Assembly (NCBI RefSeq): GCF_012027395.1
Contig: NZ_SNUJ01000003.1
Coordinates: 62,001 to 126,000, forward strand
Direction of reading: 5' to 3'
Length of the DNA stretch: 64,000 nucleotides
Origin: Thermococcus sp. LS1
GTDB lineage: Archaea > Methanobacteriota_B > Thermococci > Thermococcales > Thermococcaceae
Part shown: positions 8,719-12,467 of the stretch, one piece after another
How positions within the stretch are numbered: the stretch's first letter is position 1
How the letters are laid out: every line of letters starts with the position of its first letter
Notes under the pieces: generated by a model
Database searches by the model: none
The model's input: the letters and a program-made list of their open reading frames with translations, nothing else
Told to the model about the DNA's origin: nothing
Translations under genes and position numbers: made by a program

Positions 8719-8785
8719 TATCCCACCCATCCTATTTTCGGCTAAACCTTTATGAACCTTTAGTCAAAACACCGGTTAGGGAAGT

Positions 8786-8794
8786 CTTATAAAC
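8786..8794 (+). promoter_or_regulatory. TATA box for the PIN-ATPase gene
   Basis: CTTATAAAC lies about 40 bp upstream of the ATG at 8830; the leader carries GAGGTGAGAGAA as ribosome site. Confidence 0.6.
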
Positions 8795-8829
8795 GGATGA
8801 GAGTTTCCGGGACTTCTGAGGTGAGAGAA

Positions 8830-10638
8830 ATGAGAGTGTTCGTTGCTGATACGAGTGTTATAGTTGATGGCCGCCTTACGCAGTTCCTATCAACGCTTGA
8901 AGACAAAGTTAAGGTCGTTATCCCTGAGGCAGTCATTGCCGAGATAGAGCACCAAGCCAACGAGGGCAAGGCTATAGGCCATGTAGGGCTTGAGGAGCTC
9001 AAGAAGCTCCGTGAGATGTCCGATAAAGGAAAGATACTCCTCGAGTTCTACGGCGAGCGGCCCGAGCTCTGGCAGATAAGTAGGGCGAAGGCTGGAGAAA
9101 TAGACCACATGGTCAGGGAGGTTGCCCAGACGCTGAGCGCCACTCTAATAACCGGTGACCAGGTGCAGAGGGACATAGCCATCGCCAAGGGTATAGACGT
9201 GATTTACCTGACGGCCAAGAAAGAAGTCAGGCACCGCTTGGAGGACTTCTTTGACGAGACGACGATGAGCGTTCACCTGAAAGCTGGCTTAAGGCCGATG
9301 GCAAAGAAGGGAAGGCCGGGAGAGTGGAAGCTCGTTCCCGTTCGTGACGAGATTCTGACCGACGAAGAGCTCGAAGAGATTGCCGATGACATAGTCGAGC
9401 GCGCGAGGCGTGATCCAGAATCCTTTATAGAACTCGACGAGCCAGGAGCGACCGTCGTCCAGCTCAGAAACTACCGTATAGTTATTGCCAAGCCGCCCTT
9501 TGCAGACAGGATTGAGATAACTGCCGTTAGACCCGTCACAAAGCTGAGTATAGAGGACTACGATCTGAGCGAGAAGCTCCTGGAGAGGCTTGTGGATAAG
9601 GCGGAGGGAATACTCATAGCAGGTGCGCCGGGAGAAGGAAAGACAACCTTCGCACAGGCTTTGGCTGAGTACTACGCCTCCATGGGCAAGATAGTGAAAA
9701 CAATGGAGAAGCCGAGGGATCTGCAGGTGAGCGACGAGATAACCCAGTACACGGCTTTGGCCGGTAGAATGGAAAAGACGGGAGACATACTCCTCCTCGT
9801 CAGGCCAGACTACACGATATTCGACGAGATGAGAAAGACCAGCGACTTCAAAATATACGCTGATCTGAGACTTGCAGGCGTCGGAATGGTTGGTGTCGTG
9901 CATGCTACCAAGCCCATCGATGCGATCCAGAGGTTCATCGGAAGGGTCGAGCTGGGAATGATACCCCAGATAGTCGACACCGTGATTTTCATCAAGGCAG
10001 GAAAGGTCGCCAAGGTCCTGACACTGGAGTACCTCGTTAAGGTGCCAAGCGGTATGAAAGAAGAGGACTTGGCCAGGCCTGTCATCGAGGTTCGCGACTT
10101 TGAGACGGGCGAGCTTGAGTACGAGATATACACCTACGGTGAGGAGATAAGCGTTGTTTCAGTAAAGAAGGAGGAGAAAGCACCGGCGCTGAGGCTTGCG
10201 GAGAAGAGGCTCAAGCAGGAGATAAAGAAGTTCCTGCCGGATGTCTACGCCGAGGTTGAGATAGTCAGCCCGCACAAGGCGGTTATTTATGCCGACGAGT
10301 TCGACATTCCTGCAATCATAGGGAAGAAGGGCAAGCGCATCACCGAGCTTGAAAAGCGCATAGGGATAAGCATCGACGTCAAGAGCTTTGCCGAGAGGGA
10401 AGCGGCAAAGCCGAAGGAGAGGATACCCGTCGATGTCGAGGAGAAAAAGAAAACGATAGTGCTCCGCGTTTCGCCAGACTATGCTAAGAAGCCGCTCAAG
10501 TTCTACGGCGGCGAGCAGTATGTCTTCACTGCAACGCCGAGCAAGAAGGGCCTCGTCAAGGTAAGCAAGAGCACGCCGATAGGGAAGGAGCTGAAGAGGC
10601 TCCTCGATGCGGGCATTCCGATATGGGCCTCGGCCTGA
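8830..10638 (+). CDS. PINA-type PIN-domain/AAA ATPase with KH domain, 602 aa
   Basis: An archaeal fusion of three modules. A PIN nuclease-like domain at residues 1-140 begins MRVFVADTSVIVDG, with D7 as the first acidic residue. A VirB11/type II secretion-like ATPase follows, with Walker A GAPGEGKTT at 265-273. A KH-type segment, IIGKKGKRITELEKRIG, lies in the C-terminal fifth. A Sulfolobus homologue is described as an ATPase and helicase acting with Holliday-junction enzymes; older annotation as PilT is misleading because there is no pilus context. An upstream GTG/ATG extension to 8797 is less likely, since the ribosome site GAGGTGAGAG sits just before 8830. Confidence 0.9.
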   Translation: MRVFVADTSVIVDGRLTQFLSTLEDKVKVVIPEAVIAEIEHQANEGKAIGHVGLEELKKLREMSDKGKILLEFYGERPELWQISRAKAGEIDHMVREVAQTLSATLITGDQVQRDIAIAKGIDVIYLTAKKEVRHRLEDFFDETTMSVHLKAGLRPMAKKGRPGEWKLVPVRDEILTDEELEEIADDIVERARRDPESFIELDEPGATVVQLRNYRIVIAKPPFADRIEITAVRPVTKLSIEDYDLSEKLLERLVDKAEGILIAGAPGEGKTTFAQALAEYYASMGKIVKTMEKPRDLQVSDEITQYTALAGRMEKTGDILLLVRPDYTIFDEMRKTSDFKIYADLRLAGVGMVGVVHATKPIDAIQRFIGRVELGMIPQIVDTVIFIKAGKVAKVLTLEYLVKVPSGMKEEDLARPVIEVRDFETGELEYEIYTYGEEISVVSVKKEEKAPALRLAEKRLKQEIKKFLPDVYAEVEIVSPHKAVIYADEFDIPAIIGKKGKRITELEKRIGISIDVKSFAEREAAKPKERIPVDVEEKKKTIVLRVSPDYAKKPLKFYGGEQYVFTATPSKKGLVKVSKSTPIGKELKRLLDAGIPIWASA

Positions 10639-10697
10639 CCTCGCCGACTTCGAAAACTTTTTATGGTTTGTTTTCTTCTTTTATATGGTGGTAATTA

Positions 10698-10931
10698 GTG
10701 GGTGCGGCTGATGTTTTGGCAACCATCGGTGCAGTGTTGTTCATCATGCTCATAGCAATGCCATTCATCCCTGGCGGACCTGAGATCATGAAGCTCTTTT
10801 TGGGGCTGCTCCCCTTAATCCTCATTGTGGTTCTCCTTGTGAAGGTCTCCGAACTGAGCGGCGAAGTTAATGCCATGAAGAAGGAGCTCGAAGAAGTGCG
10901 TGAAAAGCTTGAAGGGCGGAGAGGTGAGTGA
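10698..10931 (+). CDS. Small two-helix membrane protein with C-terminal coiled coil (array member 1)
   Basis: The 77-residue product has two hydrophobic segments at about residues 6-26 and 31-49, then a charged heptad-like tail rich in Glu, Lys and Leu. It starts at GTG, with GGTGGT upstream and TATA-like CTTTTTATGG near 10657-10666. It is the first of five consecutive small genes of the same architecture between 10698 and 11789. I know of no function for the family. The tail could mediate homo- or hetero-oligomerisation on the cytosolic face. Confidence 0.65.
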   Translation: MGAADVLATIGAVLFIMLIAMPFIPGGPEIMKLFLGLLPLILIVVLLVKVSELSGEVNAMKKELEEVREKLEGRRGE

Positions 10932-11156
10932 ATGGGAGAAAATTGGGACGGCATGGAGGTTGCAGGTGCAGTGATTACCGGTTTGGGCTTTCTGCTCCTG
11001 TTTGCGGGCAGTTGGATCGTCGGCTCTGTGGTCATTGCCCTTGGCCTCGTCGTGTGGAAGATGGGGGAGATGCGGCGGGAGTTCAACGAGAAGCTAGAAT
11101 CCCTTAGGAGTGAACTGGATGCCCTTAAACGCTCCGGAGGGGTGATAGATGGCTAG
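10932..11156 (+). CDS. Small two-helix membrane protein with coiled coil (array member 2)
   Basis: The product is 74 residues, with two close hydrophobic segments at about 10-27 and 29-44, then a charged coiled-coil-like tail. The ATG follows the stop of member 1 directly, and GAGGTGAGTGA serves as ribosome site inside the previous gene. Sequence identity to member 1 is low, but size, topology and order of parts are the same. Confidence 0.65.
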   Translation: MGENWDGMEVAGAVITGLGFLLLFAGSWIVGSVVIALGLVVWKMGEMRREFNEKLESLRSELDALKRSGGVIDG

Positions 11157-11373
11157 TATTTCCACCGTGGGGTTTGCGATAATCGTTGTCTCGATCCTCA
11201 TTATGGTGTATCCCATGGGATGGTTCCCAGTCCTGATGATGGTTCTGCTGTTCGCTACGGTTGGCTGGGTCATCATGGAGATTGGGAGCCAGATTGAGGG
11301 CCTGAATTCACAGGTCAAAAGTATTCGCCGCGAGGTGGAAGCGCTGAGAAGAAAGATTGAGGGGGATGGCTGA
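11149..11373 (+). CDS. Small two-helix membrane protein with coiled coil (array member 3)
   Basis: The product is 74 residues. The hydrophobic segments lie at about 7-24 and 26-46, followed by a charged tail with regularly spaced Leu, Val and Ile. The ATG overlaps the end of member 2 by eight bases, and GGAGGGGTGATAG precedes it, so translation is probably coupled. Confidence 0.65.
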   Translation: MASISTVGFAIIVVSILIMVYPMGWFPVLMMVLLFATVGWVIMEIGSQIEGLNSQVKSIRREVEALRRKIEGDG

Positions 11374-11374
11374 A

Positions 11375-11623
11375 ATGAGGCTCATAAGGGATCTCTCCGT
11401 GCTCTTTGCGGTGCTGACATCGCTTGCGTTGATACTCTGGGTTCAGCCAGAGGAAAGGGGCGATGCAGCCTTTCTCTTCGCTACTGCTCTTATTGTTTTG
11501 GTCTTTCTGTTGCTTGTGCTTACGATGAAGGTTGAGCGCCTGGAATCAAAGGTTGCCGAGCTTGAATCCAGCCTGAAAAAGTTTGAAGAGCAGGGATGTG
11601 AAGGTGATGGTTTGGAAAGATAA
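11375..11623 (+). CDS. Small two-helix membrane protein with coiled coil (array member 4)
   Basis: The product is 82 residues. The hydrophobic segments lie at about 7-22 and 32-51, separated by a polar stretch QPEERGD, with a heptad-like tail after them. The start chosen is the ATG at 11375, because GAGGGGGA at 11359-11366 is properly spaced from it; an ATG at 11366 and a TTG at 11357 are in-frame alternatives. The 3' end overlaps the start of the next reading frame by 17 bases. Confidence 0.6.
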   Translation: MRLIRDLSVLFAVLTSLALILWVQPEERGDAAFLFATALIVLVFLLLVLTMKVERLESKVAELESSLKKFEEQGCEGDGLER

Positions 11624-11789
11624 GATCTTTTAGGCTCTGGCGATCGGAGGGTTCTTTGCTTATCTCTTCGCATTCATAGTCGGCCCAAGGGCCCTGATAA
11701 TTGGAAGTGCTCTCTGGATCCTTGCCTTCGTCTATCTGGTGGTTTCTAGCATTGAAAAATGGGCTGGATGCCGGAAAGAAACTGCATGA
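11607..11789 (+). pseudogene. Fifth array member, interrupted by an in-frame TAG
   Basis: An ATG at 11607 opens a frame coding MVWKDKIF, then TAG at 11631-11633. The same frame continues for 51 codons to TGA at 11787, giving two strongly hydrophobic segments (from ALAIGGFFAYLFAFIVG and from ALIIGSALWILAFVYLVV) and a short charged end. This matches the layout of the four genes before it, so the frame is very likely a real gene broken by one substitution, for instance TTG or AAG to TAG. No alternative ATG, GTG or TTG restarts the frame before the first helix. A sequencing error is the simplest competing explanation. Confidence 0.6.
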
Positions 11790-11881
11790 TGGCTCAGCTG
11801 CGAGGGTACTCATCATCCTGCCGCGTGGAGCGCGACTTCAGCTAGCGAAATTGTCGTCATCGCCAGCTTTAGTTCTCGGAA

Positions 11882-11912: not shown

Positions 11913-12467
11913 ATGTTAGTGCTGGCCTCAGCAAGTCCGAGGAGAAGGGAAATACTTGGCAGGTTCATTAAGGACTTCAAGGTAGTTCCGAGCAACGCGA
12001 GCGAGGAGTGCTCCCTGACCGAGCCGAGAGCTTACGCCCTTGAGCTCGCTAGGAGGAAAGCAAGGGAAGTTTACAACCGCGTCGGCGGGACTGTCATCGG
12101 TGCCGACACCGTCGTCTCCATCGATGGCCATATCCTCGGCAAGCCGGGAAGCGAGGAAGAGGCCTACAGGATGCTGAAGCTCCTCAGCGGCAGGGTTCAC
12201 TGCGTCACGACCGGCTACTGCATAATCTACGAGGGAGAAGAGGTCTCGGGTGCCGTCATCACGGAAGTCAAGTTCAGGGAGCTGAGCGACGAGCTGATAT
12301 GGGCGTACATAAGAACTGGCGAGCCCATGGATAAAGCTGGCGCCTACGGCATACAGGGGAAGGGAGGCCTTCTGGTGGAATGGATCAAGGGTGACTACTA
12401 CAACGTTGTCGGCTTCCCGATTGAGATAATTATGAAACTTAGGGAGCTCGGCTTTAAGGTTTTATAA
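11913..12467 (+). CDS. maf: Maf family nucleoside triphosphate pyrophosphatase
   Basis: It hydrolyses non-canonical or modified nucleotides such as methylated UTP, CTP or dTTP to the monophosphate. The N-terminus LASASPRRREIL is the family's phosphate-binding motif, followed by GADTVVSIDG and the GKPGSEEEAYRMLKLLSG segment. At 184 residues it has the usual size. The 3' end overlaps the convergent PHP gene by six bases. No signal or membrane segment is present. Confidence 0.92.
   Translation: MLVLASASPRRREILGRFIKDFKVVPSNASEECSLTEPRAYALELARRKAREVYNRVGGTVIGADTVVSIDGHILGKPGSEEEAYRMLKLLSGRVHCVTTGYCIIYEGEEVSGAVITEVKFRELSDELIWAYIRTGEPMDKAGAYGIQGKGGLLVEWIKGDYYNVVGFPIEIIMKLRELGFKVL

Follow-up and report, generated by a model that had tools for sequence, protein, structure and literature searches.

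Five small genes lie head to tail on the plus strand at positions 10698-11789 of a 64,000-nucleotide stretch of the Thermococcus sp. LS1 genome (the window). Each encodes a tiny membrane protein, and the arrangement raises the question whether the array, here M1 to M5, specifies the subunits of one membrane-bound assembly or a set of parts that can be exchanged for one another.

Architecture and setting of the array

The reading frames were checked directly. As the initial annotation had it, four of the five are intact and one is broken. M1 (10698-10931, +; 77 aa, GTG start), M2 (10932-11156, +; 74 aa, with the motif WKMGEMRREF), M3 (11149-11373, +; 74 aa) and M4 (11375-11623, +; 82 aa from the ATG at 11375) each encode a two-TM hairpin that leads into a coiled coil with an almost perfect heptad pattern. 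M5 (11607-11789, +) encodes a two-TM hairpin with a short basic C-terminus and without the coiled-coil tail. It is a pseudogene whose sole break is one in-frame TAG (11631-11633) at a position that is Trp in relatives; the frame is otherwise open, and intact M5 copies are present in other species. M1 and M2 abut, M2 and M3 overlap by 8 nt, M3 and M4 lie 1 nt apart, and M4 and M5 overlap by 17 nt, which agrees with the overlapping or abutting starts and stops described at the outset.

In M1-M4 (74-82 residues) a short turn connects two hydrophobic segments, and a charged tail follows. The a/d positions of these tails are 67-89% hydrophobic compared with 0-13% elsewhere (M1-M4 rows listed), consistent with the heptad-like character first ascribed to the four intact copies. 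This architecture exceeds what chance would give. The window has 144 ORFs of 55-95 codons, both strands counted, and a strict rule demanding two hydrophobic peaks and a hydrophilic tail picked three of them, namely M1, M3 and M4, with M2 narrowly below the thresholds. AlphaFold2 models of M1 and M3 (pLDDT 80-82) display a helix hairpin in which the second helix runs unbroken into the tail (M1, H3-23 and H27-76; M3, H3-20 and H22-72); given a pTM of about 0.4, local shape alone is trustworthy in these models. The tails carry on average 3.8-6.7 K+R, while the loops are nearly devoid of positive charge (0.1-0.5; 1.4 in M4). According to the positive-inside rule, both the N- and the C-termini are thus most likely cytoplasmic. 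Moreover, the modelled fusion of a coiled coil with such a hairpin makes self-association the most likely behavior of the members. We are highly confident of the anatomy taken by itself, apart from any role.

An A-rich BRE, a TATA element (CTTTTTAT) and a T-rich stretch are located upstream of M1 (10654..10682, +; AAACTTTTTATRGTTTGNTTTCTTCTTTT), followed by the Shine-Dalgarno sequence GGTGGT (10687..10692, +), which fits the GGDGRD motif (PMC5316973). Promoter and Shine-Dalgarno elements have been mapped in T. onnurineus, and those of the array match them (PMC5316973). In array-bearing genomes, a BRE/TATA promoter precedes the first member, whichever member that is; it is conserved before a first-placed M1 or M2 and can still be recognised ahead of M3, M4 and M5, and GGTGGTAA is conserved ahead of the first member. 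When 61 Thermococcus genomes were scanned for the promoter pattern with up to three mismatches, it was found in 25, essentially at this locus alone, with one stray three-mismatch match. Judged from these elements, the view that the array is one operon with its own promoter is supported. Unusual conservation of this promoter was considered and dropped, since the PINA/MinD promoter is about equally conserved; the comparison therefore points to a working promoter, and no special control is claimed.

The neighbors of the array are fixed. Upstream is PINA (8797..10638, +), with PIN, ATPase and KH domains (Pfam PIN, 1.9e-9; T2SSE and KH below cut-off), which was found in 93 of 94 genomes. Downstream, 2 nt past M5 and on the opposite strand, is the C/D-box guide RNA sR39 (11792..11864, -; Rfam RF01122, 69 bits relative to a gathering score of 50, E=2e-16), a landmark also in array-free genomes, the conserved core of which was recovered at 32 loci. 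Next follows the gene for the Maf nucleotide pyrophosphatase (11913..12467, +; Pfam Maf, 1.9e-59), the fixed downstream neighbor in Thermococcus. PINA, sR39 and Maf are found whether or not a genome has the array, which is thus an insert into a fixed frame; that it lies there provides no functional tie to PINA.

This frame has features of its own. In the window genome and in G026, sR39 is extended by an insert between boxes D' and C', which is missing from most relatives. The divergent MinD-like and PINA genes have a common promoter region (8730-8797 of the window) in which TAAACCTTTATGAACCTTTAG is identical in 13 Thermococcus genomes; this region is probably a bidirectional promoter. The PINA frame extends to ~1200 aa in G018, G039, G042, G072, G073, G076, G077 and others, and the match breaks at residues 282/283, near the ATP-binding loop. 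These long frames very likely carry an intein, and the window copy is without one. A second locus-specific family, of about 123 aa (MRYDVVVIPESFH...), occurs downstream of PINA in G019 (C1:1858928-1859293) and 22 other genomes. It has no Pfam match and was never found with M1 or M2, which phylogeny may explain. The neighboring MRYDVV-family gene and M1/M2 were present in 18 and 23 of 50 genomes, respectively, and in none together (Fisher 4e-7); mutual exclusion is not claimed, as the tree holds only about two independent pairs.

Family identity, paralogy and variable content

To what family do these proteins belong? No family match for the members was found in Pfam, NCBIfam, PADLOC or PDB, nor did we find a paper that describes the array, and the original impression that no named system resembles it stands. 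A PDB sequence search matched the coiled-coil tails and nothing else, a PDB fold search with the M3 model found nothing, and a viral fold search with the M1 model found nothing convincing. The FlaC, FtsL, Rz-spanin and KwaA models, which have a TM helix or coiled coil in common with the members, gave weak matches, below curated cut-offs where these exist (for the PADLOC KwaA model nothing significant, best E=0.012), and coiled-coil/TM composition explains these matches. M3 weakly matches phrog_13188 (E=2e-5), but a tblastn search with M3 matched no phage record, and phrog_13188 is a weak lead at most. In Thermococcaceae, a conserved ~67-aa single-TM and coiled-coil protein is encoded directly before the gene of a 331-aa enzyme (L126, 2981-3184; G000:C2). 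It was discarded as a relative (G000:C2:537501), its weak M1/M3 profile matches covering TM2 and the tail only and reflecting composition.

Orthologs were gathered from the PINA-Maf stretch of Thermococcaceae genomes, and members were assigned with seed-only HMMs; HMM searches covered the genomes of the family for M2 and 115 genomes of the phylum for the other members. Strong matches lie essentially at the PINA-Maf locus alone, with a few on short contigs with flanks cut. Broken copies included, a readable locus with orthologs is present in 34 other genomes. Of these, 30 are Thermococcus sensu stricto, and four belong to a second genus, whose only member is an M5-type gene that does encode a coiled-coil tail. 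Another four genomes carry orthologs on fragmented contigs. An M2 pattern scan that extended to other archaeal and bacterial phyla, and which detects close relatives only, returned just two Thermococcus loci. Homologs outside the window strain hence exist, and they are not scattered singly among unrelated neighbors: members can stand alone, always in the same place.

The proposal that the array arose by old tandem duplication and divergence was examined with local hhalign runs against 100 shuffles, in which the columns of the N-terminus, TM1, loop, TM2 and tail were each randomised separately to keep composition and architecture in the null. Scores were clearly above all 100 shuffles for M1-M2 (z 7.6), M1-M5 (5.1), M2-M3 (4.9) and M1-M3 (4.7), and narrowly above all of them for M2-M5 (3.9), M3-M4 (3.6) and M1-M4 (2.6). 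M2-M4 (2.9) was equalled by one shuffle, and M3-M5 and M4-M5 did not exceed this null. As judged by these profile scores, M1, M2 and M3 are clear paralogs, and M5 and M4 probable ones, each joined by a single link, via M1 and M3, respectively. The duplication proposal is in this way upheld.

The content of the locus was surveyed in 50 Thermococcus genomes in which it is readable, counting broken copies. Thirteen states were found: no member (20 genomes), all five (6), M2-M3 (5), M5 alone (4), M2 alone (4), M1-M2 (3) and M3-M4 (2), and, once each, M1 with M5, M1-M2-M3, M1-M2 with M5, M2-M3-M4, M1 through M4, and M4 alone. Members always follow the order M1-M5, and the copy number ranges from 0 to 5. 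As to whether order and number are conserved next to the PIN-ATPase gene, the order is constant in Thermococcus and the number is not. The five-member state is scattered on the Maf tree, the early-branching window genome included, with 5-11 changes per member; an ancestral five-member array with repeated losses would fit this pattern. Broken copies are seen in G000 (M5), G070 (M3), G047 (M5), G027 (M4), G086 and G089 (M5 in both) and G029 (M1/M5). Where M2 is placed first, it has a GTG start in place of M1's GTG in 8 of 10 genomes, while internal M2 copies start with ATG in 9 of 12; in G017 the end of M2 resembles that of M4. The losses look like recombination between paralogs, some apparently leaving fused starts or tails.

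Synonymous divergence differs along the array. Between G071 and G070, dS is 0.21 at M1, 0.49 at M2 and 0.76 at M4, and saturated at M5. Between G071 and G037 it is 1.32 at M1 and 1.3 at M2, but 0.30, 0.24 and 0.20 at M3, M4 and M5. G031 and G042, which are sisters at Maf, show a dS of 0.51 at Maf relative to 1.62 at M1. Since high synonymous divergence means that DNA was replaced and not merely that the protein evolves fast, these values indicate that alleles have been swapped between species. At the protein level, dN/dS is 0.11-0.35 in most close ortholog pairs in every member group and 0.15-0.19 in pairs of lone M5, the latter signifying strong constraint. A few M2/M3 pairs with little synonymous change reach 0.5-0.8 over few sites. 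Collectively, these ratios indicate purifying selection on all member groups.

Parallel parts or one machine

Any member can be absent and a lone M5 is constrained, and therefore the members appear to be parallel and not obligate partners. The pattern suggests interchangeable accessory parts, not one machine. In the model that we favor, M1-M5 would constitute one lineage-specific family of about 54-85 residues that arose at one place in the chromosome through tandem duplication, with one promoter transcribing all members and translation proceeding from overlapping or abutting frames. In each protein, two membrane helices would form a hairpin that leaves both termini cytoplasmic. M1-M4 would prolong the second of these helices as a coiled coil, most likely for self-association, the tail serving as an oligomerisation or docking stalk. 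The members would act in parallel as individually dispensable accessory proteins, with a repertoire tuned by gene loss and allele exchange between species. The most likely selective reason would be protection against varying membrane-directed insults, an immunity-like repertoire, and not a constant housekeeping task. Within this model, the architecture, the paralogy (strong for M1-M3), the single locus, the promoter, the selection, the variable content and the mosaic alleles are observed, whereas topology, self-oligomerisation and the protective role are inferred. Several observations speak against the model: neither a toxin nor a virus nor any other threat is linked to the locus, whose position does not change and which has no recombinase beside it, the alleles are under purifying and not positive selection, and the rigid member order would be needless for a pure repertoire. 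The relaxed constraint in some M2/M3 pairs and the common broken copies also weigh against it. The complete statement, protective role included, is consequently put forward as a tentative reading with less than an even chance of being right.

A membrane-structuring role is nearly as likely as the immunity-like one, although we regard it as doubtful. LapA- or hairpin-scaffold-like members would adjust curvature, lipid order or vesicle release to the habitat, and copy number would track ecology such as depth or temperature. Two TM segments with a cytoplasmic coiled coil are the LapA/YrvD type of architecture, one M2 ortholog weakly matches LapA_dom (E=8e-4), and fast turnover without a partner gene would be in keeping with this role. 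However, the window M2 has no LapA match, and the role itself does not explain the mosaic exchange of alleles.

The members were also proposed to be subunits of one hetero-oligomeric membrane assembly, where coupled translation would yield equal amounts and the coiled coils would pair in defined combinations. The overlapping or abutting junctions occur throughout and are kept even after losses, the order is constant, and at least six genomes retain all five members, broken copies counted. On the other hand, M2, M4 and M5 each occur singly and almost all combinations of adjacent members are found, whereas the subunits of an operon-encoded complex should co-occur in genomes; moreover, alleles of the left and right members were swapped independently, which should break matched interfaces. 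A fixed multi-subunit assembly was thus not borne out, and the obligate hetero-oligomer is disfavored because single members persist; overall, we consider this explanation unlikely. The least probable of these rivals is that an old duplication or mobile element (e.g., viral holin-like genes) is decaying here, with little present function, as might be read from the broken copies in several genomes, the 20 of 50 memberless loci and the weak phrog_13188 match of M3. Against it, most close pairs show the low dN/dS reported above, the promoter is preserved to the same degree as the one of the housekeeping neighbor, neither tblastn with M3 nor the fold search with the M1 model gave a convincing phage or viral match, and one fixed site only is occupied.

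Comparison with known systems

Few archaeal genes are as poorly annotated as those for small membrane proteins. In the genetically tractable Thermococcus, the array offers a compact unnamed family for which nature already supplies knock-outs, strains with one member only and exchanged alleles. With LapA/DUF1049 (PF06305) M1-M4 share the order of two TM segments and a cytoplasmic coiled coil within about 70-100 aa, a likeness and not membership, as none of the window M1-M5 matches PF06305 above the Pfam cut-off. LapA genes, in contrast, are single, without tandem arrays, and are linked to bacterial control of LPS, which archaea lack. The arCOG01994/arCOG09673 system (Makarova et al. 2015, PMC5898192) likewise comprises fast-evolving, clustered small archaeal membrane proteins and is also found in Thermococci; by its description (PMC5898192), however, it has three TMs (arCOG09673), an AAA+ ATPase, an ABC transporter and S-layer genes, which the array does not.

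Bacterial polyimmunity loci consist of closely spaced, same-strand tandem arrays of distant paralogs that vary in number and type, usually with one locus per genome and no toxin between the genes (Zhang et al. 2012, PMC3482391). Two known immunity families, Imm-CdiI and Imm17, are two-TM proteins, and extended polyimmunity loci have been reported in bacteria only (PMC3482391). In the array, too, small paralogous genes follow one another closely on one strand with no other gene in between, and their number and type vary among close relatives; a single locus, the lack of a toxin inside and the existence of two-TM immunity proteins are further points in common. It differs in being archaeal, in its coiled-coil tails, fixed site and fixed order, and in that no sequence match was found. 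No toxin is known in its genome or neighborhood, and no homologs beside cognate toxin genes were found among the 115 genomes of the phylum or, beyond it, in the M2 pattern scan. An archaeal membrane-embedded counterpart, i.e., a recombination-shuffled hairpin/coiled-coil repertoire in a fixed slot, each member guarding the membrane from a threat of its own (entry or lysis by a virus, an archaeocin, a toxin carried by vesicles), is in our estimate improbable. With its tandem paralogs, variable content and exchanged alleles taken together, the array is most like polyimmunity loci, but we do not claim that it is one. Should conflict with viruses or competitors lie behind the variation, the array would be a rare and directly testable archaeal case; otherwise, it still illustrates how an operon of tiny membrane proteins is reshuffled by recombination between species.
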